Positions 1 to 62,120 of a stretch of DNA of 64,000 nt are shown here, piece after piece. The notes below the pieces were generated by a model. It ran no database searches. It saw only the letters and a program-made list of their open reading frames with translations, and was not told the DNA's origin. This stretch comes from Fretibacter rubidus (GTDB lineage Bacteria > Pseudomonadota > Alphaproteobacteria > Caulobacterales > Maricaulaceae): the NCBI RefSeq assembly GCF_041429785.1, contig NZ_CP163423.1, positions 3,038,001 through 3,102,000 of the forward strand. Reading direction: 5' to 3'. Every line of letters starts with the position of its first letter. Position 1 is the first letter of the stretch. Position numbers and translations under genes: made by a program.

Positions 1-882
1 ATGGCCCCTGGCATAGAGGTTGAGAGTGTCTTTATTCCTGATGTATCAAAGACGGGAGCGCTTTGCGTCTCTTCTCAAGTCGGTTGCACGCTAACTTGTA
101 CGTTTTGTCACACAGGCACACAGCGCCTTGTGCGGAACCTCACAGCGCGCGAAATTATCCTACAAATTATCATTGCCCGCGATGATTTGGATGAATGGCC
201 AACGCAGCAGGAAAACCGCAAGCTGACGAACATCGTCTTTATGGGCATGGGCGAACCACTTTATAATACAGAGCAGGTTTGCCAAGCCGTTGACATTATG
301 TCCAATGAAACAGGCCTGTCCATTGGACGGCGGCGGGTGACCGTCTCCACATCGGGCGTTGTACCTGAAATCGCCCATGTCGGACGGCGCACCGGGGCGA
401 TGCTCGCCATATCGCTTCACGCAGCTAATGATGCTTTGCGCGAAAAAATCATGCCAATTAACCGCAAATATCCACTCGCGGAACTCATGCAGGCCTGCCG
501 TGATTATCCGGGGCTGTCTAACGCGCGGCGCATTACGTTTGAATATGTAATGCTAAAAGGCATTAACGACAGCCCGAAACATGCGCGAGAATTAATTACT
601 TTGCTGCAAGGCATTCCTGCCAAAGTGAACCTGATCCCGTTTAATCCGTGGCCTGGCAGTGAATATGAATGCTCTGATTGGGAAACGATTGAACGCTTCG
701 GCGTTATTGTGAATAAATCAGGGCTCGCCGCGCCCATCCGCACCCCCCGTGGCCGTGATATCTTGGCCGCCTGCGGACAATTGAAATCCGAGTCTGAAAA
801 GATGCGCGCCAGCGAAAGACGCGCTTTAGAAAAAGCCGCGCAAAGCGAGGCGATTACAGATGCATCCCCCCTCAAAGAATAA
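1..882 (+). CDS. rlmN: 23S rRNA (adenine2503-C2)-methyltransferase RlmN, N-terminus missing
   Basis: Radical-SAM enzyme that methylates C2 of adenine 2503 in 23S rRNA (and A37 of some tRNAs). The visible 293 residues hold the radical-SAM cluster motif CxxxCxxC at residues 29, 33 and 36. A cysteine seven residues earlier (C22) and one in the C-terminal ACGQL motif correspond to the two catalytic cysteines of the family. The family is usually 350-400 residues, and the segment before the [10 protein letters not shown] stretch lies outside the window. The ATG at base 1 is therefore probably an internal methionine and the gene is cut by the window edge. The C-terminal tail is charged and poorly conserved. 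A terminator-like hairpin follows at 938. Identification is confident. Confidence 0.95.
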
Positions 883-45824: not shown

Positions 45825-45840
45825 GTCTCTCTCCTCCCCT

Positions 45841-45860
45841 GTTCTTATGATTTTAAGAAC
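45841..45860 (+). terminator. First hairpin after the phasin gene
   Basis: A 7-bp perfect stem GTTCTTA / TAAGAAC with loop TGATTT lies just after the phasin stop. It has no T run of its own and stands directly before the stronger hairpin at 45874. Confidence 0.4.
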
Positions 45861-45873
45861 CCCTAAGCGCATC

Positions 45874-45910
45874 GGCGCGGCTGTTGCCCCCCAACAGCCG
45901 CGCCATTTTT
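45874..45910 (+). terminator. Strong intrinsic terminator between phasin and phaC
   Basis: A perfect 13-bp stem GGCGCGGCTGTTG / CAACAGCCGCGCC with a C5 loop, followed by ATTTTTG. This is a strong terminator separating phasin from phaC. Confidence 0.88.
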
Positions 45911-45911
45911 G

Positions 45912-45949
45912 TTTCACGCGAATTTTTCCTTTTAGACTCGCGCGTGAAA
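45912..45949. promoter_or_regulatory. Spaced inverted repeat before phaC
   Basis: TTTCACGCG (45912-45920) and CGCGTGAAA (45941-45949) are perfect 9-bp arms 20 bp apart, 36 bp before the phaC start. The spacing is too wide for a compact hairpin and suggests a possible protein site or looped element. Confidence 0.35.
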
Positions 45950-45984
45950 ACGGTCTAAGCTAACGAAAATAACGGGGAAACACT

Positions 45985-47664
45985 ATGGCACTCACACCAG
46001 AATCAGTTGGGCAAAAAGCATCAGAGACACCGACAGCCGTCAATTCGCTTGTTGGTTTCCGGCGCGGCGAAGTTGTGAAATCTATAGGCCTTTTGGCGGG
46101 ATATGCCGCCAAGCAACCGAGACCCTTTGCCAAGCATTTACGCAATTACGGCAAAGAAATGCTGGAAATCGCCAAAGGCACATCAGAACTCGCTCCACAT
46201 GCCAAAGACCGCCGTTTTAAAGACCCGACATGGTCAGAAAACCCACTTTATAAACGTGGCCTGCAAAGCTGGCTGGCTATGCGCCGCGAACTTAACGGCT
46301 GGATAGCCGATAGCGGTATGCATCCTGCGGATCAATCACGCGCGCAATTTGTTTTGGATCTTGTCGTTGATAGCCTTGCGCCGACAAATACATTATTAGG
46401 CAACCCTGCTGCCATGAAAAAGCTCTATGAGACGGGGGGACGCAGCCTGCTGAAAGGGTTGCAAAATGCCTATGACGATTTACGGCATAATGGCGGTATG
46501 CCCAGCCAAGTTGATGGCCGCCCGTTCAAAGTCGGAGAAAATCTGGCAACGTCCAAAGGTGCGGTTGTTTATAAAGATGAAATGCTGGAGTTGTTACAAT
46601 ATGAGCCAACAACAGATGAGGTGTATAAGACACCTATCTTAATTATTCCGCCGCAGATTAATAAATTTTACGCCAATGACTTAGCGCCCAATAAATCGAT
46701 TGTGCGCTTCCTTGCTTCACGCGGATATCAAGTTTTTGCCGTATCATGGCGTAATCCAACGCGGCAACACAGCCATTGGGGGCTTGAGAATTATGTCCAA
46801 GCCTTAATCGAGGCCACAGATGTCATGCGCAAAATTTGTCGTGTGCAACGCATCAATATTTCAGGGGCCTGTTCGGGCGGCATTACCATGGCCCTCCTAT
46901 TATCAGAGCTTGCTGCGCGCGGGGACAACCGCGTCAATAGCTTTACTCAAATGGTCTGTGTGCTGGACGGCAAGAAGACCGATAGCGAAGTTGGTCTATT
47001 TGTGACGGATGGCGCCATTGAAGCCGCACGCAAGAACAGTCGTAAAAAAGGGATTTTGTCGGGCGAAGAGCTGTCACGGTCTTTTGCTTGGATGCGGCCG
47101 AATGACCTTATTTGGAATTATGTCGTCAATAATTACCTACTCGGCGAAGACCCGCCGCCCTTTGACGTGTTATTTTGGAATAACGACAGCACGAATTTGC
47201 CTGCGCAGCTACATTCTGATTATCTTGATATTTTCTCTGACAAGCGTTTCCGCGCGGACAGCGAAGTCGAGTTTATGGGCCATATCGTTGACCTTAAATC
47301 TGTCACACAAGACGGCTTCATGGTTGCAGGCGTTACGGATCACATTACTCCGTGGAAAGCGTGCTACCGCAATATTGGGCTGTTTGGCGGGCAAATTGAT
47401 TTTGTCCTATCCAATTCAGGCCATTTACAGGCCCTGCTGAACCCGCCGGGCAATCCAAAATCTCAATATTTCATATCTGACGATTACCCCGAAACAGCCG
47501 ATGAGTGGATGGGCAAAGCAAAGCCCGTACAGGACTCCTGGTGGCCACGGTGGGATAGCTTTTTATCCGAGCGCTCTGGTGAGCTTAAAAAATCACCGCG
47601 TAGCCTTGGCAGCAAAAACTACCCACCCTTGGTGAAAGCGCCTGGGGAATACGTCTTTACCTAG
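45985..47664 (+). CDS. phaC: Class I polyhydroxyalkanoate synthase PhaC
   Basis: A 559-residue enzyme polymerising (R)-3-hydroxybutyryl-CoA into PHB. The catalytic triad is Cys296 in the lipase-box-like SGACSGG, Asp452 in VAGVTDHITPW and His480 in NSGHLQALLNPPGN. The N-terminal domain (about 70-210) is of the PhaC type, with NPLYKRGLQSWLAM. The alpha/beta-hydrolase domain follows. Length is typical for class I. No phaA/phaB genes are adjacent. It is preceded by phasin and followed by phaZ and a second phasin. Confidence 0.95.
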   Translation: MALTPESVGQKASETPTAVNSLVGFRRGEVVKSIGLLAGYAAKQPRPFAKHLRNYGKEMLEIAKGTSELAPHAKDRRFKDPTWSENPLYKRGLQSWLAMRRELNGWIADSGMHPADQSRAQFVLDLVVDSLAPTNTLLGNPAAMKKLYETGGRSLLKGLQNAYDDLRHNGGMPSQVDGRPFKVGENLATSKGAVVYKDEMLELLQYEPTTDEVYKTPILIIPPQINKFYANDLAPNKSIVRFLASRGYQVFAVSWRNPTRQHSHWGLENYVQALIEATDVMRKICRVQRINISGACSGGITMALLLSELAARGDNRVNSFTQMVCVLDGKKTDSEVGLFVTDGAIEAARKNSRKKGILSGEELSRSFAWMRPNDLIWNYVVNNYLLGEDPPPFDVLFWNNDSTNLPAQLHSDYLDIFSDKRFRADSEVEFMGHIVDLKSVTQDGFMVAGVTDHITPWKACYRNIGLFGGQIDFVLSNSGHLQALLNPPGNPKSQYFISDDYPETADEWMGKAKPVQDSWWPRWDSFLSERSGELKKSPRSLGSKNYPPLVKAPGEYVFT

Positions 47665-47807
47665 GTCAGGCTTCGTCTTTACTGACTGTTAAGCGCTGTA
47701 GCGCAGACTTTACTTTGGCGGCGAATATCGCCACCACAAAACAACAGACCGGGGAACCGGCGATATGGTCGACACAATATGGCGACCTGAAGGAAAACGG
47801 ACCCATC

Positions 47808-48701
47808 ATGAGTGATTTTCACCCCAATCTGCCACGTATCTTTTTTTCAAAGATTGGTAATCAAAAACTTCGGACAGCGATTTGGAGCGGAGCCGATAAA
47901 GGGTTTGGTAAACGCACACCACTTTTATTTTTCAACGGCATTGGCGCAAACCTTGAAATAGCGCAAACCTTTGCCGACACCTTTACGGGTCGCGATATCA
48001 TCACCTTTGATATGCCTGGCGTGGGCGGCTCGCCTGATCCAACATTTTTATATCGTCCGTGGTGGGTTGCCAAAGCGGCCAAACAAATCCTGATTGACAA
48101 TGGCTATGACAAAGTTGATGTCTTGGGCGTGTCATGGGGCGGGGGCGCGGCACAGCAATTTGCCTGGCAAAATAAAGACATGACCCACCGCCTGATTTTA
48201 TGTGCGACAACAACGGGCGTCACTATGGTGCCAGGTAATCCCAAAGCGCTGTCAAAGATGATGTCGCCTAAACGCTATATTGACCGTGATTTTCTGGCCA
48301 AGAACTTTGAGACATTATACGGCGATGCCGCCAGCGAAGGTGTAGGCGAGTTTTCGATTAATATGATGCCGCCCTCTGTGAAAGGTTATCTATTTCAATT
48401 AGGCGCAATGGTCGGTTGGTCATCGCTGCCGTTTATTCGGCGCATTCGAGCCAAGACATTGGTGATAATGGGTGATAAGGACCACATCGTTCCCGTCGTC
48501 AACGGGCGGTTTCTGCATATGATGTTAAAGCGCTCTCGTTTGAAAATTATTCACGGCGCGGGGCATTTGTTCTTACTGACCCGCCGCCAAGAAACCATTG
48601 ATATGATCCGCGATTTCTTTGGAGAGCCCGAAGTCCATGTTGACGTTGAACCCGTCTTGCTACCCTCTGTGAAAGAGACTTATGTTGGATGGCATCATTA
48701 G
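47808..48701 (+). CDS. phaZ: Intracellular PHA depolymerase, PhaZ-like alpha/beta hydrolase
   Basis: About 298 residues. The serine nucleophile is Ser109 in GVSWGGG; the triad is completed by Asp in GDKDHIVPV and His in GAGHLFLLTR. Stretches such as LLFFNGIGANLE and DMPGVGGS match Pseudomonas-type intracellular PhaZ well. It mobilises stored polymer. The frame opens at TTG 47715, but ATG 47808 is preferred: it gives the family length and has AAGGA upstream. The stop is 8 bp before the second phasin start. Confidence 0.85.
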   Translation: MSDFHPNLPRIFFSKIGNQKLRTAIWSGADKGFGKRTPLLFFNGIGANLEIAQTFADTFTGRDIITFDMPGVGGSPDPTFLYRPWWVAKAAKQILIDNGYDKVDVLGVSWGGGAAQQFAWQNKDMTHRLILCATTTGVTMVPGNPKALSKMMSPKRYIDRDFLAKNFETLYGDAASEGVGEFSINMMPPSVKGYLFQLGAMVGWSSLPFIRRIRAKTLVIMGDKDHIVPVVNGRFLHMMLKRSRLKIIHGAGHLFLLTRRQETIDMIRDFFGEPEVHVDVEPVLLPSVKETYVGWHH

Positions 48702-48709
48702 GAGCAAAT

Positions 48710-49285
48710 ATGAGCGGAACTGATAAAAACACACCCGATAATAAAGCCTCCGATAAACGTGAGCAAAGCGAGAGCCGCTCAACTGGCGAAGCAGCGCGGC
48801 GCATATTGCTCGCTGGCATTGGGGCTTATGGCCGTGCTTTTATGGAAGCCCAAGAAGCGTTGAAAGACGTGCGCGGAAAATCCAGCGATGTCTTTGACGA
48901 ACTTGTCCAAAAAGGCGAGATGATGGAAATGGCCTTTGAGCACAAATCCAAGCAAGTCACGGAACAGGTTTCTAAGCAAGTCCGCGATAAAGCATCTATC
49001 CCCAATCTTCAGCTTGATGACCGGATTAAAAAAATGCGGTCACGCCTAATGGGTGGCACAAAAGGCGCTTTAAGTGGCGACGACGGCTTTGACACTGAAA
49101 GCCTTTCAACCCGTCTTGATACCGTTGAAGCTAAATTGGATAAGGTGCTTGCCTTGCTCGATCCGCCCAAAGCGAAAAAGGCCGCTCCGAAAAAGACAAC
49201 GGCCACTAAAACGGTACGGACGGTAAAGACAGAAAAAATGCCGTCAAAAACGCCGCCCAAAACGCCCAAGGGCAAAAAGTCCTAA
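48710..49285 (+). CDS. Phasin-family PHB granule-associated protein
   Basis: About 191 residues, PhaI/PhaF-like. A long amphipathic helical section (EAARRILLAGIGAYGRAFMEAQEALKDV) is followed by a coiled coil and a Lys/Ala/Pro-rich basic tail (KKAAPKKTTATKTVRTVK), which may bind DNA as in PhaF. The ATG at 48710 follows AGGAG; an earlier ATG at 48689 overlaps phaZ and is less likely. It ends 6 bp before the TetR gene, indicating an operon. Confidence 0.8.
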   Translation: MSGTDKNTPDNKASDKREQSESRSTGEAARRILLAGIGAYGRAFMEAQEALKDVRGKSSDVFDELVQKGEMMEMAFEHKSKQVTEQVSKQVRDKASIPNLQLDDRIKKMRSRLMGGTKGALSGDDGFDTESLSTRLDTVEAKLDKVLALLDPPKAKKAAPKKTTATKTVRTVKTEKMPSKTPPKTPKGKKS

Positions 49286-49291
49286 GCGGTC

Positions 49292-49930
49292 GTGGCAGAG
49301 CGTTCTAAGACCAAAGAAAAAATACTGCGCACGGCGCTAGGCCTGTTTAATAATGAAGGCGAAAGCCAGGTCAGCTCTGTGGATATTGCCTCTGTCATGG
49401 GCATTAGCCCCGGCAATCTTTATTATCATTACAAGGGCAAAGACGAAATTATAACCGCCCTATTTGAGGATTTCGATGATGAAATTCGTATGGTGCTCAA
49501 AGCTCCCGTCAACGCCCCGCTTAGCTTGCCTGATAATTGGGTCTATCTTTACATCATATTTGAAGAAATTTTTGATTTCCGGTTTTTTTATAAAAACCTC
49601 TCAGAGTTAATTGCAAGGAACCCTGAACTCCGCGCACGTTTTTCACGGCTTTTAGCCCTCAAAGAGCAAACCGCTTATGCGCTGCTGAATACGTTGCGGG
49701 AGGCGGGGCATTTAGAATTTGAAGAGGGCGAAGCATCCGCCTTGTCGCAACGGCTCGCACAGCATTTTACATTCTGGCTGCAATATCATGATCTGCGGTA
49801 TAATATGGCGTCGCCTAAATCCCTAATTGACCAAGGCGTGTTTTCAGCGCTGGTCATGATTATTCCTTACCTTACCCGAGATGATGGTTTTTCAAGCCGT
49901 TTAGAACAATTCTTACAAGGCCAAGGGTAA
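49292..49930 (+). CDS. TetR/AcrR-family transcriptional regulator
   Basis: A 212-residue repressor. The N-terminal TetR helix-turn-helix is visible (about 5-60): ILRTALGLFNNEGESQVSSVDIASVMGISPGNLYYHYKGKDEI. The C-terminal ligand domain is variable. The start is GTG at 49292, close to the second phasin stop. It is probably co-transcribed with phaC, phaZ and the phasin and may control them, with the palindrome at 45356 as a candidate site. It is not the classical PHB regulator PhaR. Confidence 0.85.
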   Translation: MAERSKTKEKILRTALGLFNNEGESQVSSVDIASVMGISPGNLYYHYKGKDEIITALFEDFDDEIRMVLKAPVNAPLSLPDNWVYLYIIFEEIFDFRFFYKNLSELIARNPELRARFSRLLALKEQTAYALLNTLREAGHLEFEEGEASALSQRLAQHFTFWLQYHDLRYNMASPKSLIDQGVFSALVMIIPYLTRDDGFSSRLEQFLQGQG

Positions 49931-50622: not shown

Positions 50623-51099
50623 ATGCGTAAATTTTCCCCCCTCGTCACTGTCTTGGCCGCTTTAAGCTTAGGCTCTTTCGCCAACGCCCTATCAGCGACT
50701 CAGACCATTGAAAAAGAAAAAACTGTCATCACAGATGATGGATCAACACAAATCATCCGCACAACGGCAGATACCGTCGTACCGGGCGAAACCATTGTTT
50801 ACACACTTAATTTTGTAAATGATGATGGTCAGGCGGCGGACAATCTTGTTTTGACCATGCCTGTTCCTGAACAAGTCACCTTCGTTGAAGGCTCTGCTGA
50901 CCGGCCTGGAACTGTTGTGGTTTATTCTGCTGATAGTGGGCAATCCTTTGCCACGCGCCAAGCCACAATGGTTATGACGCAAGCTGGTGAAGTACGGGCT
51001 GCGGGCGCTGATGACATCACCCACGTGCGTTGGACTATACCAGGTCCCGTCGCGGCAGGCGAAACTGGGCAGCTTTCTTTCGCTGCCAAATTGAAATAA
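50623..51099 (+). CDS. Short exported DUF11-like protein
   Basis: A 158-residue protein with a signal peptide (cleavage near NALSA, about residue 25). It carries one DUF11/COG1361-type beta domain: ADTVVPGETIVYTLNFVNDDGQAADNLVLTMPVPEQVTFVEGS. This is a single-domain member of the family seen in the next genes. It likely acts in the periplasm or at the surface. It has AAGAGGA upstream and a strong terminator just after. Confidence 0.75.
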   Translation: MRKFSPLVTVLAALSLGSFANALSATQTIEKEKTVITDDGSTQIIRTTADTVVPGETIVYTLNFVNDDGQAADNLVLTMPVPEQVTFVEGSADRPGTVVVYSADSGQSFATRQATMVMTQAGEVRAAGADDITHVRWTIPGPVAAGETGQLSFAAKLK

Positions 51100-51122
51100 T
51101 ACCGACTGAAAAATTGCTTATA

Positions 51123-51150
51123 AAAACCGACCTTAGGGTCGGTTTTTTTT
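51123..51150 (+). terminator. Strong intrinsic terminator after the short DUF11 gene
   Basis: Stem ACCGACC / GGTCGGT with a short loop is followed by eight T residues. The upstream A run makes it partly symmetric. It ends the transcript of the gene at 50623. Confidence 0.9.
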
Positions 51151-51387
51151 GATCCTTATCAAAGGGCCCGACTTTTGAGCCGCCAAGCATTAATTTATAA
51201 TTGTGTAAACAGAGCCTTAATACCATCAATTTTGAAATCCTGTAAAACATTGTTTTTATTGAGTTTTTTGATATTTTATTAAGCCCCATTAAGGGCATTT
51301 TTATTTTATTTTAACCATACTTCTTTGGCCTCATTTAACCACCTTTCCTTATATTCGATGATACCAACTCGAAAAGGAAAGTGGGTT

Positions 51388-52518
51388 ATGACTAAAACTA
51401 AAACTCTAATGAAAGGCTTGCTGGGCGCCACTGCGCTTACAGTCTTTACGGCGGGCAACGCATTTGCTGCGGGTACTGCTGCGGATACACTCGTATCCAA
51501 CACATTTACACTCTCATATGATGTCGGAGGCGTCACACAGCCGCCTGTGACACCGCCAGCGGACACAACATTCCGCGTTGACCGTCTGGTCGATGTTCTG
51601 GTGGAATCATTTGCACCTGTAACACCGTCTGCACCAGGTGCAACGGCACAGCCACTGCGTTACCGCGTGACAAACCAAGGTAACGACACGCATGGTTATT
51701 TGTTGACGGCTGTTCAAGAAGGCGGCGACGACTTCAACACAGCAGGCGCTGTTATCACATATTACGTTGATGACGGTGACGGCATCTATGAACCAGGTGG
51801 AGATGACGGCGCGCCGATCACTTACACAGCTGGAACGTCAACACCTGATATTCCTGCCGATGGTTTCTTACACGTTATCATTTCCAGCGATGTGCCAGCA
51901 GGCGCAGTGGACGGTGAAACAGCCGACATCACACTTGTTGCTGATACGCTAGAAGGTGGCGGCTCGACGACAGCTGTGGGTCCAGATGCTGATGGTATCA
52001 ACGACATTAACGCGACTGAAAACGTTTTGGCTGATGATTCAGGCACAGCAAATGAAAACGCGAATGAAGGTGACCACTCTGCGACGAATACACTAACAGT
52101 TGGCGCGGCGGATATTTCTGCGGTCAAAGCTGTCTCTGTGTTCTCACAAGACGGATCTGGATGTACAACAATTCCAGGCACACCAGCCACACCCGCGAAT
52201 GAGCAATATGCCATTCCAGGTGCGTGTATTGAATACACAATTACCGTGGAAAACGAAGGTAGCGCGCTCGCTACTGATATTGACATCGGCGATAACCTAC
52301 AGCCAGGCCTAGAGTTTATTAGCGCCAGCTTCTCTGGTTTCTCTGGATCACCATCGTTCTCACCGGCTCTACCAAGCGCGGGCACAATCTGTGACGGTCC
52401 TGTCGGAACAGCGTGTCGCGTGTCAATGATTGACGGCGAACTCGCTGGCGGCACAGTTGGTTCTCCAACGACGGGTGTTCTTACAATCCGTGCGCTTGTA
52501 GATAACGGCGTACCATAG
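51388..52518 (+). CDS. Secreted DUF11 repeat protein
   Basis: About 376 residues. A signal peptide ends at AFA (residue 27). The mature part begins GTAADTLVSNTFTLSYDVGG, a motif seen in bacterial conserved-repeat proteins. The C-terminal third is a DUF11 domain (PGACIEYTITVENEGSALATDIDIGDNLQPGLEFIS). It has two cysteine pairs typical of such domains. It lacks a C-terminal anchor. The frame opens at TTG 51325, but ATG 51388 follows GGAAAG and starts the signal peptide. It is followed, after hairpins, by the giant barrel protein. Confidence 0.75.
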   Translation: MTKTKTLMKGLLGATALTVFTAGNAFAAGTAADTLVSNTFTLSYDVGGVTQPPVTPPADTTFRVDRLVDVLVESFAPVTPSAPGATAQPLRYRVTNQGNDTHGYLLTAVQEGGDDFNTAGAVITYYVDDGDGIYEPGGDDGAPITYTAGTSTPDIPADGFLHVIISSDVPAGAVDGETADITLVADTLEGGGSTTAVGPDADGINDINATENVLADDSGTANENANEGDHSATNTLTVGAADISAVKAVSVFSQDGSGCTTIPGTPATPANEQYAIPGACIEYTITVENEGSALATDIDIGDNLQPGLEFISASFSGFSGSPSFSPALPSAGTICDGPVGTACRVSMIDGELAGGTVGSPTTGVLTIRALVDNGVP

Positions 52519-52565
52519 GCCTTTATGGCCCTATGATTTCGGGTCGCCCACTTTGTGGGCGACCC
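52514..52565 (+). other. Hairpin pair between the two DUF11 genes
   Basis: The first hairpin has arms CATAGG and CCTATG (about 52514-52535). The second is a perfect 11-bp stem GGGTCGCCCAC / GTGGGCGACCC around TTT (52541-52565). Neither is followed by a T run, so they may be RNA-stability or attenuator elements and not a standard terminator. Confidence 0.55.
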
Positions 52566-52616
52566 ACAACAAACCAATAAAACAACAATTAATATGGTGG
52601 TGCCCGCTAGGGCTAT

Positions 52617-55600
52617 GTGGACAATAACGTGACAACTATGCGACATACATTAGGGGTAATAACCCTTGCCGCAACGGCCTGGGCCGGCGGAGCGGATGTC
52701 GCAATGGCGACCGGCATTGGCGATGACGTCGTCAACGTTGCCTCATTCTCATATAATATTGACGGATCGACGGTCAATGTGACGACTAATGAAGTTGTCT
52801 TCACGATTGAAGCACCCGCCATTCCGCCAACAATCGAATTTTTCCGTTATTCACCCAATGCCCCCCATGCACAAGGCACTGTGATTAACGGCTCACGTTA
52901 CAGCCCTTCAGGCGACTTAAACGGACCCTTTGTCAGCACAGGATCCCCGCGCACAACAGGTGGACGTGTTCTGGATTTATCGGGCAACGTACCGCTAATA
53001 CCCGCGACGACATTCCTCGCAAATGAACTGATGTTTGTACAAGTAACAGACGTTCAAGCCAATAATGATCCAAACGTCGTTGAGACGATTTCTATTACAA
53101 TCACCACATCAACTGGCGACGTCGTTGTCTTGCAGCTATATGAAAGTGGCCCCAATACGGGCGAGTTCTGGGCATATATTCCGACGACCAGCGACGTGTC
53201 ACCCGGCAACGATAATGAGCTGAACACAGAAGACAACACGCAATTAACCGCAACCTATGTCGATACATTCCGTCAGACGGATGTTGTCGTTGATACCGCG
53301 CTGATTAATCCGAACTGCTTTGTTTTTGATAGCATCACAGGCGCACCCATTGACGGCGCGACAGTGACTATCATCGACACAGAAACAGGGCAGCCTGCGA
53401 CTGTATTTGGTGTTGATGAATTTTCAACATTCCCGTCTGCTGTCGATTCTGGCGAAGACGTCGAAGATAATAGCGGCTTATTATACGATCCTGAAACAGG
53501 CGGCTTTCAGTTCCCGCACTTACAGCCCGGCAATTATATTATTGTCGTTGACGCGCCAGAAGGATACAGCTTTGCCTCGACACTGCCAGCGGATCAAATC
53601 CTGACCAATGCCGGCGGATATACACTCAGTACAGGGTCATTTGGCCAAGAATTCACGATTGAAGAACCAGGCCCCATACACTTTGATATCCCGCTGGATC
53701 CCCAAACTGATTTCACGCTGACAAAAACAGCTGACCGCAGCTTTGCTGATGTCGGTGACTTTGTGAACTACACGGTGACCATTCAAAACTCAGGGGCCTT
53801 ATCGGCCCCCGTACAGCTTTATGATACTTTGCCGCTTGGCTTCCGCTATGTGCCTGGCACCTCACGCCGCGAGCAAAACCTTATAACGGACCCGTCTATA
53901 TCAGAGAACGCGTCGCTATTAACATTCCCAATGGGTGTGCTTGGCCCTGGTCAGTCTATAACGCTTGATTACGCCTTAGAAGTCGGCCCTGGCGCGCCTA
54001 TGGGCGACGCGATTAACCGCGCGGTTGTACAAGGCATTGACGGCGGTCAAATCTCTAACGTTGCCCGCGCCGAAGTAACAATGCGCGAAGACCTATTGCG
54101 CTCACGATCGACTGTTGTGGGTCGTATTTCTGAGAACTCTTGTGACGGTGACCAGGACTGGGCGCGCGATATTGAGCGCGGTATCGGTGTCGAAGGTGTG
54201 CGTCTTTATATGGAAACAGGCGCTTATGCCGTATCTGATATTGACGGCCTATTCCATTTTGAAGGCATCACGCCTGGCACCCACGTTGTGCAACTTGACG
54301 AAGAAACACTGCCAAAAGGCTATACGCCCATGGTGTGCGAAGAAAATACGCGCTATGCAGGCTCTGCCATTTCAAAATTTGTTGACGTTCAAGGCGGCGG
54401 CATCTGGCGCGCAAACTTCTATTTAGAAAAAACAGGCGAAACCGAAGACGAGAGCGTTGAGGAAGAGTTTAACGAGGCTGTCGAGTATAAAGACTACGAC
54501 ACAGAATGGTTAAACAAGCAAGACGCCACCCCAGAATGGGTCTATCCCGATACAACGCGCACACCGTCCAGCCCGTCGATTAATATCGGCATTAAGCACG
54601 GCCCAAAACAACGCATCGATTTGATGTTAAACGACAAAGCCGTGTCATCTATGAATTTAGCGGCACGTGATGTGAGCCTTACGCAAGACGTTATGATTAG
54701 CCGCTGGCGGGGTGTTGATATTCTGCCGGGTAATAACTCTGTGACCGCCATTGTTAAAAATGAAGACGGCACAATTGCCAAAACAATGACACGTAAAATT
54801 GTCTTTGTTGATACAATTGCGCGCGCCGTTCCCATGCCGGATAGTTCGACACTTGTGGCCAATGGCCGCGACGTGCCTGTTGTGGCTATCCGACTAGAAG
54901 ACGAAGCGGGCCGCCCCGTTCATAAAGGCCGAGTTGCCAAGATTGATATTGAAACACCTTACCGTCTTTATGACGAAAACGGCGAACGTCAGTTAATCGA
55001 GCAGCAAAATGATTTGATTGCGCCGTTGACAGCCCGCCAAGAATTACAAGTCGGGTCTGATGGTATTTTGAAAGTCCGCCTAGAGCCAACACTGCGCACG
55101 GGTAAGGTCACTGTGATCGTGACATTGGATACGGGTCGCCAAGTGCCTGTTTACATGTATCTGGAACCTGAAAAGCGCGACTGGATTTTGGTTGGTCTTG
55201 CCGAAGGGTCTGCCGCACTTGAAAAGGTACGCGGTAATACAATTGCTTTGTCTGGTAGCTCCGATGATAACGCCTTTGATATGCGCGAAGAAACCGACGG
55301 CGAAGACGTTATCACCGATGGTCGTGTTGCATTTTTCGCCAAGGGCCTGATCAAGGGCAATTGGTTGATGACCATGGCCGTTGATACCGATAAGCGCCGT
55401 TTTGGACGTGACCAAGGCTACGCCGAAGAAATTGATCCCAACGCCTATTACACACTTTATGGTGACCGCTCTTACCAAGATTTTGAAGGCGTTAGCCGCT
55501 ATCCTGTTTTTGTTAAATTAGAAAAGCGCACGGCCTATGCCATGTTTGGTGACTACGACACAGATATTCCAGAAGGCAAGTTAACGGCCTATAACCGCCG

Positions 55601-57746
55601 CCTGTCTGGCCTTAAGGCTGAATATTTGGGTGAGAACTTTCAAGTCCTCGGCTTTGCCGCGGAAACCAACCAAGGCTTTGCCAAAGACGAGATTGCGGCT
55701 GATGGCACTAGCGGAACATATCAACTGTCGCAAAATAATATCTTGGCGCAGTCCGAGGAAATCGTGATTGAGACGCGCGATCGTAATCGTTCTGACGTTA
55801 TCCTCGAGCGCAAAGTTATGGTACGTTACTTGGACTACACGCTTGATTACCTCACAGGTGAGCTGATCTTCCGCCTGCCTGTTGATGCCACCGATTTTGA
55901 GTTTAACCCCAATGTTATTGTGGTGGACTATGAAACACTGAACGATGCTGAGAAAAACGTGACCGCCGGTGGCCGCGTTCAAGCGCAGTTTGCTGATGGT
56001 CGCGTCCGTGTGGGTTCAACATTCGTGCATGAAGAAGGGGCCGTGGCAAAAGCTGGCAGCGAACAAAATATGATTGGTGTCGATGTTGTCGCCCAAGTCA
56101 CGGACAGTACCGAAATTCGCGCTGAATATGCCATTACCGATGATGCGGGTAATCCTGATGCTAAAACAGCGAATGCTATGCTCGCCGAAGTTATTCATAC
56201 CAGCGAAAACATCTCTGCAGATGCCTATTTTCGCGAAGAAGACGGCGGGTTTGGACTAAATCAACGCGGGTCGACAACAAACCGTATCCGCCGTTTCGGG
56301 GCCAATGCTAATATTCAAATTTCTGAATTTGAAGACGAAGAAACAGGGCGTCGCGGCACACGCACCGTTGAAGCCCGCGCTTACCGTGAAGAAAACTTGG
56401 AAACAGGTGACCAGCGCGATGTGGCTGAAGTCACCGCCCGCCATACTGGCGAACGCTTAATCGTCTCTGCTGGTTTGCGCGCCGCCAAAGACGAACTTGT
56501 TGGGCGTGATGACCGCACATCAATCTTGGCCGTATCACAGGCAAGCCTGGCTATCCCGAAACACGGCACAACGATACAGTTTTCGCATGAGCAACCTTTG
56601 GGCGGCAAAGACGCCGTCTCTGCTTTCCCGCGCCGCACAATGATTGGTGTCGATAAGACAATTGGCGAAAAAGCAACGGCGTCTATTCGTCACGAAATTT
56701 TAGATGGTGATACACAAAAAAGCCAAAACACAACATTTGGCCTCGCCGCAACGCCTTGGAACGGCACAACCTTGACGGCGAACTCAGATCTTTTGACCAA
56801 TGATCTAGGCCGTCGGTTGGGCGCTACTGTTGGTGTCGACCAGCAAGTACAGCTATCTGAGAAGTGGTCAGCATCTGCAGGTCTACGTAACCGCAAAGTC
56901 CTCGACCAATCGGGTGAGTTTATCCAAGTCGCCCCAGACGCCGCTGTGTCGCCCGTGGAAGTGAATGAAGATTTCACATCGGCTTATATGGGCGTGGGAT
57001 ACCGCGACGAGGTCATGAGTGCCAGCACACGTGTTGAGGCCCGCAATAGTAGCGCAGGCGATACATGGATTGGCACCGCCGGTATTGCCCGCGAGCTATC
57101 TGAAAAACTATCCGTGGCCGGTGCGCTACGCGGCTTTTTTAATGAGAATAAGAACAACCCCAATGCAACAAGCCGTCTAGATGTCCGCGTGGGGTCTGCC
57201 TGGCGTCCGCGCGGTGAAGAGACAATTGTGCTGAACCGTTTTGATGCGTCTTATGATAAGAATGACCAAGGCGAAACACAGAGCAAGCTGGTCAATAATC
57301 TCGCCCTTAATACAATGGTGGCTGATAATTGGCAGCTCGCTACGAATTACGGTGTGAAATATGTCCAAGCTGATATTGCGGGTCAAAAACATAAAAGCTG
57401 GAACCATCTTTTAGGGGCCGAGACACGATTTGATCTGACAGAGAAAATTGACCTTGGTCTGCGCGCACAGCTTCTTCATAGCCCAACCGTTGGTACAACT
57501 GAATATAGCTGGGGTCCGTCTATTGGGATTGCGCCTGTGAAAAACGTCTGGATTAGCGCGGGTTATAATGTTAGCGGCTTTAAAGATGAAGATTTCGAGG
57601 CCGCTGATTATTCGCGCAAAGGTATCTATCTACAGATGCGCATCAAATTTGACCAACATACGGCCAGTGGCCTTTTGCGACGCATTAGCCCAAGTGCGAC
57701 AGTCAATGAGATTGATACATCTAACCAGAGCTTTGCCAACCCTTAA
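52617..57746 (+). CDS. Giant DUF11-beta-barrel outer-membrane protein
   Basis: A 1,709-residue secreted protein. The start at GTG 52617 is tentative; ATG 52638 is the best alternative and begins the signal peptide MRHTLGV...DVAMA. Two carboxypeptidase-regulatory-like beta domains lie at about 225-345 and about 504-605, with a DUF11 domain between (about 360-500, from TDFTLTKTADRSFADVGD). An acidic linker and Ig-like region (about 605-860) follow. The last about 840 residues are beta-strand-like with a terminal RKGIYLQMRIKF strand typical of outer-membrane barrels, and a short tail. The architecture suggests an outer-membrane barrel with a large surface or periplasmic arm. Its role (adhesion, secretion or assembly) is unknown. 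Confidence 0.75.
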   Translation: MDNNVTTMRHTLGVITLAATAWAGGADVAMATGIGDDVVNVASFSYNIDGSTVNVTTNEVVFTIEAPAIPPTIEFFRYSPNAPHAQGTVINGSRYSPSGDLNGPFVSTGSPRTTGGRVLDLSGNVPLIPATTFLANELMFVQVTDVQANNDPNVVETISITITTSTGDVVVLQLYESGPNTGEFWAYIPTTSDVSPGNDNELNTEDNTQLTATYVDTFRQTDVVVDTALINPNCFVFDSITGAPIDGATVTIIDTETGQPATVFGVDEFSTFPSAVDSGEDVEDNSGLLYDPETGGFQFPHLQPGNYIIVVDAPEGYSFASTLPADQILTNAGGYTLSTGSFGQEFTIEEPGPIHFDIPLDPQTDFTLTKTADRSFADVGDFVNYTVTIQNSGALSAPVQLYDTLPLGFRYVPGTSRREQNLITDPSISENASLLTFPMGVLGPGQSITLDYALEVGPGAPMGDAINRAVVQGIDGGQISNVARAEVTMREDLLRSRSTVVGRISENSCDGDQDWARDIERGIGVEGVRLYMETGAYAVSDIDGLFHFEGITPGTHVVQLDEETLPKGYTPMVCEENTRYAGSAISKFVDVQGGGIWRANFYLEKTGETEDESVEEEFNEAVEYKDYDTEWLNKQDATPEWVYPDTTRTPSSPSINIGIKHGPKQRIDLMLNDKAVSSMNLAARDVSLTQDVMISRWRGVDILPGNNSVTAIVKNEDGTIAKTMTRKIVFVDTIARAVPMPDSSTLVANGRDVPVVAIRLEDEAGRPVHKGRVAKIDIETPYRLYDENGERQLIEQQNDLIAPLTARQELQVGSDGILKVRLEPTLRTGKVTVIVTLDTGRQVPVYMYLEPEKRDWILVGLAEGSAALEKVRGNTIALSGSSDDNAFDMREETDGEDVITDGRVAFFAKGLIKGNWLMTMAVDTDKRRFGRDQGYAEEIDPNAYYTLYGDRSYQDFEGVSRYPVFVKLEKRTAYAMFGDYDTDIPEGKLTAYNRRLSGLKAEYLGENFQVLGFAAETNQGFAKDEIAADGTSGTYQLSQNNILAQSEEIVIETRDRNRSDVILERKVMVRYLDYTLDYLTGELIFRLPVDATDFEFNPNVIVVDYETLNDAEKNVTAGGRVQAQFADGRVRVGSTFVHEEGAVAKAGSEQNMIGVDVVAQVTDSTEIRAEYAITDDAGNPDAKTANAMLAEVIHTSENISADAYFREEDGGFGLNQRGSTTNRIRRFGANANIQISEFEDEETGRRGTRTVEARAYREENLETGDQRDVAEVTARHTGERLIVSAGLRAAKDELVGRDDRTSILAVSQASLAIPKHGTTIQFSHEQPLGGKDAVSAFPRRTMIGVDKTIGEKATASIRHEILDGDTQKSQNTTFGLAATPWNGTTLTANSDLLTNDLGRRLGATVGVDQQVQLSEKWSASAGLRNRKVLDQSGEFIQVAPDAAVSPVEVNEDFTSAYMGVGYRDEVMSASTRVEARNSSAGDTWIGTAGIARELSEKLSVAGALRGFFNENKNNPNATSRLDVRVGSAWRPRGEETIVLNRFDASYDKNDQGETQSKLVNNLALNTMVADNWQLATNYGVKYVQADIAGQKHKSWNHLLGAETRFDLTEKIDLGLRAQLLHSPTVGTTEYSWGPSIGIAPVKNVWISAGYNVSGFKDEDFEAADYSRKGIYLQMRIKFDQHTASGLLRRISPSATVNEIDTSNQSFANP

Positions 57747-57830
57747 CGCTTATAAATAAGTCTTTAAGCTTTCATCAAGGCAATTGCACTAGATTAGACA
57801 AAGCAGAATGCCGAAAAGAGGTTAGCCGGG

Positions 57831-59804
57831 ATGGTGCCATTAAAATTAATGGAGACGCGAAATTTTAAGTCGCGCATCAGTCGTGCGCTAGGCTTAATGG
57901 CCTCGCTATGCCTCATCGTACCTCTGGCAACAGCGCAAAGTTATCAAATCACCGGAAACCCCGCAGACGTCATTAACGGAACGATTGATTGCGGCGGCAC
58001 ATCCCGCCTAACCAGAACAATCAATGTGCCAACTAGCTTTACCGTGGATAAATTAAACCTAGGCTTTGTCGCCGCACATAGCTGGCGAGGCGATATAGAA
58101 CTGACCTTAACCCCGCCAGACGGTGCGCCGACCGTTCAATTGATTGATTCTGAAACCAATACGACCAATCAAGATAATTACAATGTTGAACTTGATAATG
58201 ATGCAACGACGCTGATTAACACAGCGCCGCATGACACCAATGACAGCCTAACATTTCCACCCGCAAGCACGACATATGAAAACCGTGTACAGCCAAACGG
58301 CGTTAGCGGTGCAGGCACGGGGCTCGACGCATTTTCTGGCGAGGCGGCGGCAGGCAATTGGACGCTGTCTATGTGTGACGCTTTCCCAGGGTCTGATGAC
58401 GGCACATTTGAGGCGGCGACACTTTATTTTATCGACGCCTCTGCCATTGATCTATCCATGGCGATTGCGCCCAGTTCAACGACGCCAGATTACGGCACCT
58501 CTGTCAATCTGGCTTACACAATTACGAACTCTGGAGCGGCAACCGCCACAGGCGTAACCGCCGATATCATATTACCAAGCGGGCTTGATTTCGTCTCTAG
58601 CACTGGGGCGGGTAGTTATAATGATACCACGGGCGTCTGGACTGTTCCAAATATCACCGCTGGCAACAGCCAAACAATCACGATATCCGCGACAGTCTTA
58701 ACATCGGGCGGCTACACGACAACAGCAGAGGTCAGCACCGCTACCGAGACCGATATCGACAGCACGCCCGCTAATGCCAATGTCACAGAGGATGATTACG
58801 ACAGCGAAACCTTATCGCCAGTATCAGTCAGCATTCCGCCGCTCGCCTGTCCCATTGGACAGCAATCAAGCCATATTTGGACAGCCCCCGGTGGGGCCAA
58901 TGGGTGGACAGGGCCAAGCCTGTCGGAGAGCTACACCCTGCCCAATGGGGAGGCTTTAGCCTTTACCATCTCAGGCGATACGGGCACGTTTATTCCGCGC
59001 GGCGGCGTCACCATTCCAGCCACCACGGATGAATTTACAGGCGGTAGCGGCAGTGGCATTTTCGGTCTGACCCTTTATGTTGATTTCACATCACCCAGTC
59101 AGTCCATTATTGTTGACATAGATGTCGGCGCGCCTGGCATTGGCATGGGCGACGTTCAATTTGGCGTTTATGATGTTGATTTGGGCGGATGGACAGACCG
59201 CATTGCTATCGAAGGGTTTTTGGACACGATTCCCAAAACCCCCATTATTACGGCTAGTAGCGGTAACACAGTTGTCGGCAATGCCATTGTCGGAACAGGT
59301 GGATCAGGCTCAACACAAGGGAACGGCAATTCAACCTTTACCTTTGGTAGTTCCGTTGACCGTATTCGCATGACCTATGACAATACAAACCCAGCCGCCA
59401 ATCCTGACCTCCAAGTTATTGCGATTATGCCCTTTACATTTTGCCCACCCTTTACGGCTGATTTAAGTGCGCAAAAGACGGTGGAAATGTATGATCCATC
59501 TGGCACAGGGGCGACAGATATTTACGCCATTCCGGGTAACGAAGTGTTGTATAAAATATCGGTCACTAATTCAGCCACTGCCACTGCGCCCGCCAATGAT
59601 ATAAATCTAAATGATGTTCTGCCAGGTAACTTACGCTTTGTATCGGCCAGCGTGACGGGGTTCTCAGGCGGTAGTTTTGGCTCACCTGCCCTACCCGCGA
59701 CTAACACCGACTGTGACGGCGGGGCATGTGTCATTAATTACACCGGTGCAGATTTGCCCGTCAACACCACAGGCGAGATTGCCATTCGCGCAGTGGTGAA
59801 GTAA
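57831..59804 (+). CDS. Secreted P-domain/DUF11 protein
   Basis: A 657-residue protein with a signal peptide ending at TAQ (about residue 36). A proprotein convertase P-domain (about 37-195) shows LNLGFVAAHSWRGDIELTLTPPDG and NWTLSMCDAFPGSDDGTFEAATLYF. A DUF11 domain (about 205-330), an unassigned beta-rich domain and a second DUF11 domain at the C-terminus (about 540-657) follow. The last domain resembles the C-terminus of the protein at 51388. No protease domain is present, so the P-domain is a structural module here. It lies 84 bp after the giant barrel gene. Confidence 0.75.
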   Translation: MVPLKLMETRNFKSRISRALGLMASLCLIVPLATAQSYQITGNPADVINGTIDCGGTSRLTRTINVPTSFTVDKLNLGFVAAHSWRGDIELTLTPPDGAPTVQLIDSETNTTNQDNYNVELDNDATTLINTAPHDTNDSLTFPPASTTYENRVQPNGVSGAGTGLDAFSGEAAAGNWTLSMCDAFPGSDDGTFEAATLYFIDASAIDLSMAIAPSSTTPDYGTSVNLAYTITNSGAATATGVTADIILPSGLDFVSSTGAGSYNDTTGVWTVPNITAGNSQTITISATVLTSGGYTTTAEVSTATETDIDSTPANANVTEDDYDSETLSPVSVSIPPLACPIGQQSSHIWTAPGGANGWTGPSLSESYTLPNGEALAFTISGDTGTFIPRGGVTIPATTDEFTGGSGSGIFGLTLYVDFTSPSQSIIVDIDVGAPGIGMGDVQFGVYDVDLGGWTDRIAIEGFLDTIPKTPIITASSGNTVVGNAIVGTGGSGSTQGNGNSTFTFGSSVDRIRMTYDNTNPAANPDLQVIAIMPFTFCPPFTADLSAQKTVEMYDPSGTGATDIYAIPGNEVLYKISVTNSATATAPANDINLNDVLPGNLRFVSASVTGFSGGSFGSPALPATNTDCDGGACVINYTGADLPVNTTGEIAIRAVVK

Positions 59805-59816: not shown

Positions 59817-60326
59817 CTAGCTGCAGGATGATTTTGCTTTCTTTAGCGCCGCAGTTACGCCTTTTAATGAAAACTCATAACTCACTGATGTGCCGCGGCT
59901 AGAGACGGCTTGGACGCGCATATTGGCCCCTGCCCGCATTTTATTTACCAAGCTACGCTCGCTACTTGCGCTCTCGATAAAGGCTTCATTGGCGGAGACA
60001 AACATGCGCGTGCGCGACGCGCCGACAATGGCGACAGGCGGACTACTGTCTTTTAACGTATAGCCGGTCATCAGGCTGGGCTGTTCCGTCGCTTGACCTG
60101 ATTTCCAATTGGACACCATGAAATATATATCGCCGTGATTGACGGAACTGGGCGCTTTTTTCTGCGGCGCAGCCAGAACGTAGCAAATCTTGTCACCGCC
60201 CTCAACGCGCGAATAAGTCGCCCAATCGCTAAAGGTGCCCTCTAATTTGGGCGCGGACGCTTGTGCAGGATACGTGAAACCCAAAGCCGTAACCGCTAAT
60301 GTCGTTATCAAAATGCCGTAACGCAT
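59817..60326 (-). CDS. IalB-family exported protein
   Basis: About 169 residues. A signal peptide ends near AQA (about residue 22). The mature part has FSDWATYSRVEGGDKICYVLAAPQKKAP..., typical of invasion-associated locus B proteins, a common alphaproteobacterial exported family of unclear function. The C-terminus ends SSCS, giving one likely disulfide pair. The frame extends to 60359, but ATG 60326 follows GGAGAG and begins the signal peptide. It converges with the P-domain gene. Confidence 0.7.
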   Translation of the reverse strand: MRYGILITTLAVTALGFTYPAQASAPKLEGTFSDWATYSRVEGGDKICYVLAAPQKKAPSSVNHGDIYFMVSNWKSGQATEQPSLMTGYTLKDSSPPVAIVGASRTRMFVSANEAFIESASSERSLVNKMRAGANMRVQAVSSRGTSVSYEFSLKGVTAALKKAKSSCS

Positions 60327-60428
60327 CACACTCTCCAAAGTCGCGCCTGTGGCGAACATATAATTGCCCTTATAGCAATCGATTGGCGTTAAGGGCGCGT
60401 TAATAACAGTGCAATTTCAGTAAATAAA

Positions 60429-62120
60429 ATGCCTTTAACGGCCCGCTTGCCATCGCCTGTCTTTAGACCCTATTATAGTGTAGGGGGATTGGGCATTTCA
60501 AACAGATTTACATATGCGGGATTTGTATCCTACGCTCATCATGATGAGGCCCTAGCGGCCAAATTACATAAGGCGTTAGAGACATATCGCGTGCCCAAAG
60601 GGATCGCAGACCGCAAAGCGCTATCCCCCATTTTCCGAGACGCATCCGAGCTGAGCGCGCATCATAGTTTATCCGCCAAGATAAATGAGGCGTTAGAGAC
60701 GTCGCGTTATTTGATTGTACTCTGTTCGCCCGCCGCCAAGGCGTCTTATTGGGTCAATGAAGAAATTCGAACATTTCGCGCTTTACACGGCAAAGAGCGC
60801 ATCCTCTGCGCCCTGATTGAAGGCACGCCTGATACATCCTTCCCACCCGCCTTGACAGAGAACGGCGGCGAGCCCCTCGCCGCAAGTCTGGACGGGGGAC
60901 GCGACAGTTTCCGCCTCGGCGTGACCCAAATTGCTGCGTCTATTTTGGGGGTGGGGCTCGATGAATTAATCCAACGCGACGCACAAAGGCGCCGCGCCCG
61001 ACAACGGGTCATTAGCGGCGCGTCCCTCGCCTTTGCTGCCGTGATGGGGGCGATGACATGGACAGCGGTCGATGCGCGCAATGAAGCCGAGACGAGCCGG
61101 TCTGAGGCCGAAAAAATGGTCGAATTTATGCTAACCGATTTAAAGGCCGATTTGGAAGTCGTTAGCCGCCTTGATATTTTGGATGATGTCGGCAAAAATG
61201 TGACAACATATTACGACGCTATACCGCTATCTGATATGGATGATGACCGCCTCGCCCGCCAAGCCCGTGCCCGGCACTTGCTAGGGCAAGTCGCGCTGGA
61301 TACGGGCAATATAGAGCTAGCAGAAACAGAAATCGGCGCTGCCTATACCGCAACCCAAGAAGTCATGCGCCGCAATCCGCTTAACCCAAATGCGCTTTAT
61401 GCCCATGCTCATAGTGAATTTTGGCAAGGCGCTATTTTGATGGATAAAATGAACGGTGAGCAACGCATTGCGGCTCTCCCATATCTCCAGAATTACGCCG
61501 CGATAGGCGATAAATTATATGAGCTTGATCCCACAAATTTAAAATTTGTTGATGAACGAGCATCTGGCGCCAGTAGTCTCGGTACGCTTTATAGAAGTCT
61601 AAAGGATTATACGGCTGCGCAAGACTATTTTACAAAAGCGGAAGTTTATTTTCGAGAGGCTTTGATCGCTTTTCCAAACGAAACAACATTTGAAGGACGC
61701 ATAGCCAATGTCTTATCGGGGCTCGGCAGTATCGCGATTGCTCAAAATAATCTTGAGGCGGCGTTAGCTTATCGACAAGAACAAATCACGATATATGACA
61801 CCCAATTATTACGGCATCCCCACAACATCACAGCGAGATATGAAAAAGTGCAAACGCAATCGCGTTTGATCACCGAAGGCTTGCTTAATTATAATCGAGA
61901 GACATATCTATCGACGATAAAATCAACGCTTGATGAATATGATAAGCTGATAACCTATGATCCCAGCAACATGATCTGGCTCCGCAATTACAATTTCTAT
62001 CTTAATATCTTGCTCCAAGAGCAAAGCAAAGAAGGGGCTATTGCCTTGCCTAAGGAACTCCAAATCAGGCTTGATAATACGCTAAGTCGCTTAGAAAAAA
62101 ATATGGCTGGCACGGAATAA
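60429..62120 (+). CDS. TIR domain-transmembrane-TPR protein
   Basis: A 563-residue protein. The N-terminal TIR/SEFIR-like domain (about 28-180) has GFVSYAHHDEALAAKLHKAL, LIVLCSPAAK and WVNEEIRTF, with a candidate catalytic Glu at 111 or 112. A membrane helix follows (about 195-213). The next part (EAEKMVEFMLTDLKADLEVVSRLDILDDVG) is a juxtamembrane module found in many sensor proteins with TPRs. TPR-like helices run from about 265 to 560. In bacteria TIR domains can cleave NAD+ or act as scaffolds. Role here is unknown: signalling, stress sensing or defence are all possible. Confidence 0.8.
   Translation: MPLTARLPSPVFRPYYSVGGLGISNRFTYAGFVSYAHHDEALAAKLHKALETYRVPKGIADRKALSPIFRDASELSAHHSLSAKINEALETSRYLIVLCSPAAKASYWVNEEIRTFRALHGKERILCALIEGTPDTSFPPALTENGGEPLAASLDGGRDSFRLGVTQIAASILGVGLDELIQRDAQRRRARQRVISGASLAFAAVMGAMTWTAVDARNEAETSRSEAEKMVEFMLTDLKADLEVVSRLDILDDVGKNVTTYYDAIPLSDMDDDRLARQARARHLLGQVALDTGNIELAETEIGAAYTATQEVMRRNPLNPNALYAHAHSEFWQGAILMDKMNGEQRIAALPYLQNYAAIGDKLYELDPTNLKFVDERASGASSLGTLYRSLKDYTAAQDYFTKAEVYFREALIAFPNETTFEGRIANVLSGLGSIAIAQNNLEAALAYRQEQITIYDTQLLRHPHNITARYEKVQTQSRLITEGLLNYNRETYLSTIKSTLDEYDKLITYDPSNMIWLRNYNFYLNILLQEQSKEGAIALPKELQIRLDNTLSRLEKNMAGTE

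Follow-up and report, generated by a model that had tools for sequence, protein, structure and literature searches.

Split CLIPPER (DUF11) domains at a four-gene locus of Fretibacter rubidus: candidates for a sortase-free donor-strand fibre on an outer-membrane barrel

What could four adjacent genes build when all of them encode DUF11-type domains and one of them is a giant that ends in a barrel? This question is raised by a window of 64,000 nucleotides (positions 3,038,001 to 3,102,000 of contig NZ_CP163423.1) from Fretibacter rubidus JCM 15585, described as a marine prosthecate alphaproteobacterium (PMC11556079). The genes, designated here SHORT, MED, GIANT and PDOM, are carried by the + strand (Table 1). 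Their open reading frames (ORFs) lie exactly where the initial annotation had placed them, with DUF11/TIGR01451 matches in all four (SHORT being below the Pfam cut-off and above that of TIGR01451) and a P_proprotein match in the last. Together they hold five of the six DUF11 matches of the 3.45-Mb chromosome. The answer proposed here, with a probability of about 0.6, is that the locus encodes sortase-free adhesive donor-strand fibres made from split CLIPPER domains, probably locked by isopeptide bonds and carried by the GIANT barrel as an anchor. As judged from sequence, a domain is split between proteins, the residues of an isopeptide bond are present and the parts are co-conserved.

The split is best seen at the C-termini. 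DUF11 has been renamed CLIPPER and is described as an immunoglobulin (Ig)-like domain with a Lys/Asp/Asn isopeptide set, namely Lys715, Asp748 and Asn806 in the structure 9IFR (PMC12617251). A profile of 147 states was built from 189 near-complete domains out of 25 large proteins of other loci, which include neighbours in the type A loci considered below. It replaced an earlier hidden Markov model derived from GIANT's own domain, whose C-terminal matches covered 45 of 62 MED, 28 of 43 SHORT and 3 of 8 PDOM proteins, all three sets having been filtered by length. Lys, Asp and Asn occupy states 14, 48 and 101, and all three are found in 155 of the 189 domains. GIANT contains a complete copy (residues 365-482, matched by Pfam DUF11 with 35.1 bits for a cut-off of 24.6), in which Lys370 is aligned in 73/75 sequences, Asp403 in 74/75, Asn467 in 75/75 and Asn481 in 72/75. 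In the MED acceptor of F. rubidus, the match stops at state 92, ahead of the Asn state; in five MED examples it ends at state 89-92, 0-8 residues short of the protein end. Lys247 and Asp302 are each found in 62/62 MED sequences. For the PDOM acceptor, Lys is present in 6/6 and Asp in 7/7 of the aligned sequences, out of eight, and a single match extends as far as the Asn state. These conservation counts are not independent, because the sequences are related. At the level of sequence, the C-terminal domains of MED and PDOM are CLIPPER domains minus the Asn-bearing last strand, with the isopeptide Lys and Asp kept; the residue set, complete within one domain in GIANT, is divided between proteins in MED and PDOM. 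The initial annotation had noticed the likeness of these two domains and taken them for a shared docking module. The likeness is borne out (43% identity, with SASxxGFSG and SPALP stretches in both) and docking fits an incomplete CLIPPER, the predicted partner being a donor strand and not the barrel itself. Strand-to-domain docking is predicted because the N-termini of MED and GIANT offer the missing strand.

This strand was located with a position matrix derived from the final strands of the 189 complete CLIPPER domains. In MED, the best match falls within the first 75 amino acids in 58 of 62 proteins (20% for shuffles), with Asn at the motif in 61; in GIANT, it does so in 49 of 71 (4% for shuffles), the N-terminal donor being among the top three matches in 66 of 71 and carrying Asn in 69. 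In F. rubidus, the MED donor is the best match of its protein; the GIANT donor is the second-best match and GIANT's own complete domain the best. In aligned columns, the donor Asn is present in 61/61 MED (one gap) and 70/72 GIANT sequences. None of the eight PDOM proteins has its best match in the first 75 amino acids. The matrix sometimes confuses the first and second Asn motifs of the terminal hairpin, ranking 481 and not 467 on top in GIANT; Asn467 was chosen because it lies 64 from the Asp, closer to the spacing seen in 9IFR (58) and in complete domains (median 56).

The same arrangement can be followed into more distant bacteria. The type A tally comprises 16 loci, 14 obtained from the phylum search together with L042 and the Balneolaceae locus L114; 14 of the 16 come from other families or phyla or from distant genomes, and L115, L150, L159, L161-L183 and L185 stand outside the tally. 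Among 32 type A proteins of 300-1000 amino acids with a C-terminal acceptor match, most end in F-x-V/A-x-I/V-N/D/K/Q, and the donor is the best match in 25. These 25 carry Asn in 24/25, Asp in 25/25 and Lys in 19/19 aligned sequences; the acceptor match stops before the Asn state in 20/25 and within three residues of the C-terminus in 17/25. The remaining seven comprise three tip-like proteins, one apparent wrong start, one protein cut by a contig and two with a lower-ranked donor. In the 16 GIANT proteins of these loci, the donor is the best match in 11 (one with Ser for Asn), the second in two and absent in three. The ORF caller kept the longest of overlapping ORFs and took the first start codon; under these rules, a number of genes are hidden and certain N-termini misplaced (for example in L147 and L150).

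MED and GIANT share one reading frame in 21 loci. A single AlphaFold2 (AF2) chain was modelled for locus L045, from the MED acceptor through the gap to the first strands of GIANT with stops read as Gly, on a joint alignment (A4) of 56 of 61 acceptor segments, including 19 of the 21 read-through MED-GIANT rows. In this model, the predicted local distance difference test (pLDDT) is 88-98 for the acceptor, below 50 for the disordered linker (154-195) and 94-96 for the GIANT segment (201-230), folded as strands; both pieces are tethered in one chain, without a scrambled control, and the tether therefore favours strand insertion. Structure 9ifr aligns with the model over 120 of 123 residues (root-mean-square deviation (rmsd) 2.5, Z 10.8, model range 3..229), the alignment running through the donor, and its Foldseek template modelling score by target is 0.66. 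The best matches, among them pilin domains (BcpA, SpaD, RrgB) and unrelated Ig domains (for instance of integrin and TRAP), likewise span acceptor and donor. A search of solved structures with the A4 profile returned nothing at E 0.01; the corresponding sequence search with GIANT returned the DUF11 crystal 9ifr, and 5t98 was non-significant (E 0.38). The model thus predicts that the GIANT strand completes the MED acceptor domain. BcpA, SpaD and RrgB are pilins joined by sortase, and their solved folds are among those most like the completed joint (3kpt_B, Z 12.6); no LPXTG-type tail was seen at the C-termini read by eye, where the proteins end at a strand.

On this basis, the following assembly is envisaged. 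The C-terminal CLIPPER of MED and of cargo proteins, lacking its last strand, would act as the acceptor, and the matching last strand at the mature N-termini of MED and GIANT as the donor. The GIANT strand would enter a MED acceptor, and the MED strand another MED or a cargo protein, PDOM and other acceptor-only proteins standing at the far end of a chain ordered GIANT-MED-(MED)n-cargo. The joint could close by an isopeptide bond because acceptors keep Lys and Asp and donors bring Asn; each would be a Lys-Asn bond between two proteins, formed with a catalytic Asp, as in a natural SpyTag/SpyCatcher. The C-terminal barrel of GIANT would anchor the chain in the outer membrane, and SHORT, which is shaped like an acceptor and lacks the Asp, may cap the chain or act as an assembly factor. 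The covalent bond, chain growth, surface position, adhesion and export route are what we infer.

Would the joint have to be covalent? The locus could instead produce a donor-strand fibre without covalent bonds, in which Lys, Asp and Asn are kept for folding. Such fibres are well known from chaperone-usher pili (PMC9715654), the Asp is missing from SHORT (0/43) and one family has Ser for the GIANT donor Asn. This reading is nevertheless judged unlikely in view of the MED residues (Lys and Asp 62/62, Asn 61/61, though in related sequences) and of the one solved CLIPPER domain described in PMC12617251, which contains the bond. That bond is intrachain in 9IFR (PMC12617251), whereas the domain is here divided over two proteins; the fold and the Lys/Asp/Asn set are the same, and GIANT and PDOM each have one complete copy. 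A comparable fibre is the thread of Sulfolobus acidocaldarius (Saci_0406), reported as a donor-strand fibre with apparent intermolecular isopeptide bonds, in which Asn57 of one subunit is bonded to the N-terminal amino group (Asp24) of another, two positions along the fibre (PMC9715654). In F. rubidus, by contrast, the residues suggest a Lys-Asn bond, not one between an N-terminal amino group and Asn, with a catalytic Asp inside the joint, and a predicted outer-membrane barrel is added. SpyTag/SpyCatcher also joins two proteins through a split isopeptide Ig domain; its split is described as man-made, whereas a natural split of a CnaA-like domain is seen here. SpyTag/SpyCatcher derives from a CnaB domain.

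The anchor is the second element of the proposal. The initial annotation had predicted a C-terminal barrel in GIANT, and the structure prediction agrees: the AF2 model of residues 640-1709 (64 sequences; alignment A2 with 63 of 78 giant segments, duplicates and some others being left out) has a pLDDT of 78.5 and a predicted template modelling score of 0.70, and the BBP2 barrel family gives a weak, sub-cut-off Pfam match. Outside a segment inserted after the sixth strand, 38 strands were counted in this model between residues 898 and 1679. The leading structural matches are outer-membrane proteins: SlpA/SDBC of Deinococcus, TonB receptors and FimD. The VIA list is led by FimD (9fxs_D, Z 14.1, rmsd 9.7, 322 aligned; next FimD Z 13.7), with scores tied with TonB-dependent receptors and other barrels. 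An aromatic C-terminal residue is frequent in outer-membrane proteins, and Phe, Tyr or Trp ends 14 of the 19 related barrel proteins listed (L159 and L161-L183, as analysed). The model thus supports a large outer-membrane barrel in the C-terminal half of GIANT.

Acceptors are not confined to the locus. The acceptor profile matches seven places in the F. rubidus genome: MED, PDOM and five unlinked genes. Three of the latter are intact ORFs of 341, 484 and 465 amino acids, with hydrophobic N-termini by eye, which end in FSFRARID, FTVRLTGSVK and FTVSFRVGIE. Over the 61 genomes surveyed, 49 matches occur in 15 genomes (14 with a close GIANT, plus G044); once MED (14) and one SHORT match are set aside, 13 of the 14 GIANT genomes account for 33 acceptors, and the 47 others, the distant-GIANT genome G009 among them, for a single one (in G044). 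These counts ignore kinship and come from a profile built on GIANT genomes. The check for an early stop before the last strand covered F. rubidus and two other genomes. The two remaining unlinked genes of F. rubidus lie in interrupted frames (L197 6435-6965 and L198 6498-7274). The assembly is reported as Nanopore-based (PMC11556079), and these interruptions are perhaps assembly errors.

Such a family could also be read as export signals. The C-terminal domain would then serve mainly as a tag read by the barrel, much as type IX secretion reads C-terminal domains, strand exchange being secondary, a proposal that is compatible with the donor-strand fibre. The domain ends seven F. rubidus ORFs, five of them unlinked (two in interrupted frames), and the barrel is very large; one giant barrel and unlinked proteins sharing a C-terminal Ig-type domain recall type IX secretion. 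This proposal seems somewhat less probable still than the non-covalent fibre, since neither GIANT nor the scanned proteins give a Pfam match to known sorting domains or to SprA, and the donor strand directly accounts for the truncated fold. Specifically, SprA and Por_secre_tail/CHU_C have no match in GIANT, MED, PDOM or the three intact unlinked acceptor proteins, and GIANT has no usher-family or autotransporter barrel match in Pfam up to E 0.1; membership of the ushers, autotransporters, SprA or the type IX cargo was rejected for want of a Pfam match.

It is very unlikely that MED simply closes on itself, its own N-terminal strand filling its own acceptor and the locked monomer binding GIANT in some other way. 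Donor and acceptor do lie on one MED chain; however, inter-protein joints are needed for GIANT and PDOM, because GIANT has a donor and a CLIPPER that is already complete and PDOM an acceptor and no donor. In chaperone-usher pili, the tip adhesin carries an acceptor only, each subunit is missing its final Ig strand and presents a strand at its N-terminus, and a large outer-membrane barrel is the platform. An incomplete Ig subunit and an N-terminal donor strand are likewise predicted here, in a different fold family: the subunits are CLIPPER domains with isopeptide residues, and the barrel protein itself bears a donor strand. No Pfam match to a PapD/FimC-type chaperone was obtained in the nine window proteins scanned. 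The system is not classed as chaperone-usher because neither an usher nor a chaperone family match is present. More generally, the initial annotation knew of no named system with this layout, and the searches made yielded none; no publication on a split CLIPPER was found in the open-access literature, in a search that did not cover bioRxiv.

Is the locus inherited as a unit? GIANT was found in 15 of the 61 genomes, F. rubidus included, in a close form in 14 and a distant one in G009. MED is present in 13/14 close-GIANT genomes and 0/47 others, against 13/14 and 4/47 for SHORT. MED and GIANT are co-directional in all twelve complete loci (L030-L041), although two genes intervene in L041; SHORT accompanies them in ten of these loci and PDOM in one. 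A broader collection of 73 loci, some from genomes of the 61 set and one without the barrel core, spans Hellea, Litorimonas, Robiginitomaculum, Henriciella, Parvularculaceae and other Alphaproteobacteria, and also includes one Balneolaceae and one Variovorax metagenome-assembled genome. GIANT has MED ahead of it, on its own strand, in 58 of the 60 testable loci (those with enough upstream sequence) and a PDOM-type gene directly behind it, again on its own strand, in 15 of 67; SHORT lies upstream in 37 of 56 (31 on the same strand, 6 on the opposite one). The MED-GIANT order is beyond chance. Of the four-gene order that the initial annotation expected to be co-conserved, the SHORT-MED-GIANT core holds and PDOM falls away; with a PDOM-type gene adjacent in 15 of 67 loci, the full four-gene operon is ruled out as a conserved unit. 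Long PDOM matches occur in nine genomes, all with GIANT, adjoining it in two and unlinked in seven, and PDOM appears to be one cargo protein among several. The barrel core itself is found in 55 of 398 Pseudomonadota genomes and 10 of 289 genomes of the class, F. rubidus being included in both counts.

Of 40 fetched loci, five in which no barrel ORF was called (L162, L163, L164, L168 and L174) were left out. In type B loci, a long DUF11 protein stands immediately before a barrel protein of about 1,090-1,740 amino acids; the called lengths of the DUF11 protein range from 725 to 2,796 amino acids, and an OmpA-like tail was noted by eye in some. Type B and GIANT loci have the barrel core in common, not the domain splitting. 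Type B loci, together with the reported frequency of DUF11 repeats in surface stalks (PMC12617251), would suit ordinary secreted DUF11 adhesins with degenerate terminal repeats beside an unrelated porin, a reading made the least credible of all by a break at one common strand across several families, the donor found at the N-terminus as expected and the co-occurrence with GIANT.

Several observations weigh against the split-domain fibre, beside the tether and the uncorrected kinship given above. The Asn state is reached in 5/62 MED matches and in 5/25 of the type A donor-acceptor proteins, and in 8/25 of the latter the match ends more than three residues from the C-terminus. The type A GIANT proteins of L156, L160 and L184 show no clear donor, and it is the L155 family that has Ser in place of the donor Asn. 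9ifr is rank 34 in the best 50 matches to the L045 model, its score equalled or exceeded by those of generic Ig domains (integrin, TRAP, GPI transamidase). SHORT, as read from its sequence, carries no donor strand: its best match lies in the first 75 amino acids in 27/43 (45% for shuffles), with Asn in 7 only and a score above the shuffle 99% level in 3 only, and Met replaces the catalytic Asp in 41/43. The distant-GIANT genome G009 gave no acceptor match. SHORT-like genes are also carried by G037, G041 and G044 (L194, L195 and L196) without a detected barrel core, and G044 additionally carries its acceptor match.

Table 1. Features of the split-CLIPPER locus (window coordinates)
Feature	Position	Strand	Description
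SHORT	50623..51099	+	158 aa; single DUF11-like domain, signal-like N-terminus, ends GQLSFAAKLK
MED	51388..52518	+	376 aa from the ATG at 51388 (longest ORF begins at 51325); N-terminal donor strand, middle domain, C-terminal incomplete CLIPPER; candidate major subunit
MED donor strand ADTLVSNTFTLS	51481..51516	+	Asn38, codon 51499-51501
MED acceptor, incomplete CLIPPER	52093..52515	+	Lys247 (52126), Asp302 (52291)
GIANT	52617..57746	+	1,709 aa; candidate outer-membrane anchor
GIANT donor strand IGDDVVNVASFS, near N-terminus	52716..52751	+	Asn40
GIANT SpaA/SdrD_B-like (CnaB-type) region	53322..53582	+	Pfam SpaA above cut-off, SdrD_B just below
GIANT complete CLIPPER	53709..54062	+	Lys370/Asp403/Asn467; Asn481 alternative to Asn467
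GIANT outer-membrane barrel region	55308..57653	+	Residues 898-1679, AF2 model
GIANT segment inserted after sixth barrel strand	55671..55883	+	Residues 1019-1089, AF2 secondary structure; candidate plug from the model
PDOM	57831..59804	+	657 aa; P-domain, complete CLIPPER, C-terminal acceptor; candidate tip adhesin or cargo
PDOM P-domain, proprotein-convertase type	58071..58424	+	Pfam P_proprotein 27.8 bits, cut-off 21
PDOM acceptor, incomplete CLIPPER	59412..59801	+	Lys549, Asp595

In F. rubidus, a convergent IalB-family gene (59817-60359, - strand) ends 12 bp from PDOM; IalB-like genes are among the nearest cassette neighbours in 11 of the 73 loci, downstream in L043, L044, L047, L048, L058 and L072 and upstream in L079, L091, L097, L101 and L111. 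It is followed by a gene (60429-62120, + strand) for a TIR-like and TPR protein (Pfam ThsB_TIR and TIR_2, weak PADLOC matches), possibly involved in signalling or defence. On the other side, 45381-49930 has the appearance of a polyhydroxyalkanoate-type cluster, with a phasin at 48689 and a TetR regulator recognized by Pfam, and two hydrolase/synthase-like ORFs and other phasin-like proteins recognized by eye. A promoter and terminator scan gave counts within two standard deviations of those of shuffles. Elsewhere, CpaB/RcpC and secretin genes of a Flp/Tad-type pilus adjoin SHORT divergently in L032 (14211-16479) and L035 (14212-16564); the cassette is found in this divergent position beside Flp/Tad genes in Hellea balneolensis and Litorimonas cladophorae, a neighbourhood that fits an attachment role. 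The giants of L032 and L035 continue beyond the barrel with a further conserved region of about 200 residues at the C-terminus. Very large frames (3,125-6,851 amino acids) join the barrel core to many DUF11 repeats in G002, G006, G013, G020, G027 and G032, genomes that also carry the cassette, and 20 DUF11 matches were counted in the stretch analysed of one such frame (L202).

A bolder interpretation, held only tentatively and regarded as doubtful, is that of a new Gram-negative surface organelle, in which covalent split-isopeptide fibres, self-polymerising head to tail, would be both exported and anchored by the barrel of about 38 strands. One acceptor tag would then let several unlinked adhesin genes use one anchor, and the organelle would be present in Alphaproteobacteria, other Pseudomonadota and one Balneolaceae genome. 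In the one paper found to mention donor strands together with DUF11, the domain is reported to serve in a spore-fibre anchor (PMC11952670). If the split-domain fibre proposed here is real, it would represent a sortase-free route to covalent surface fibres in Gram-negative bacteria and would explain what some members of the widespread DUF11 family do. Membership of a secreted protein in the system could then be predicted from sequence, and the donors and acceptors would constitute a natural pool of protein-joining tag pairs.

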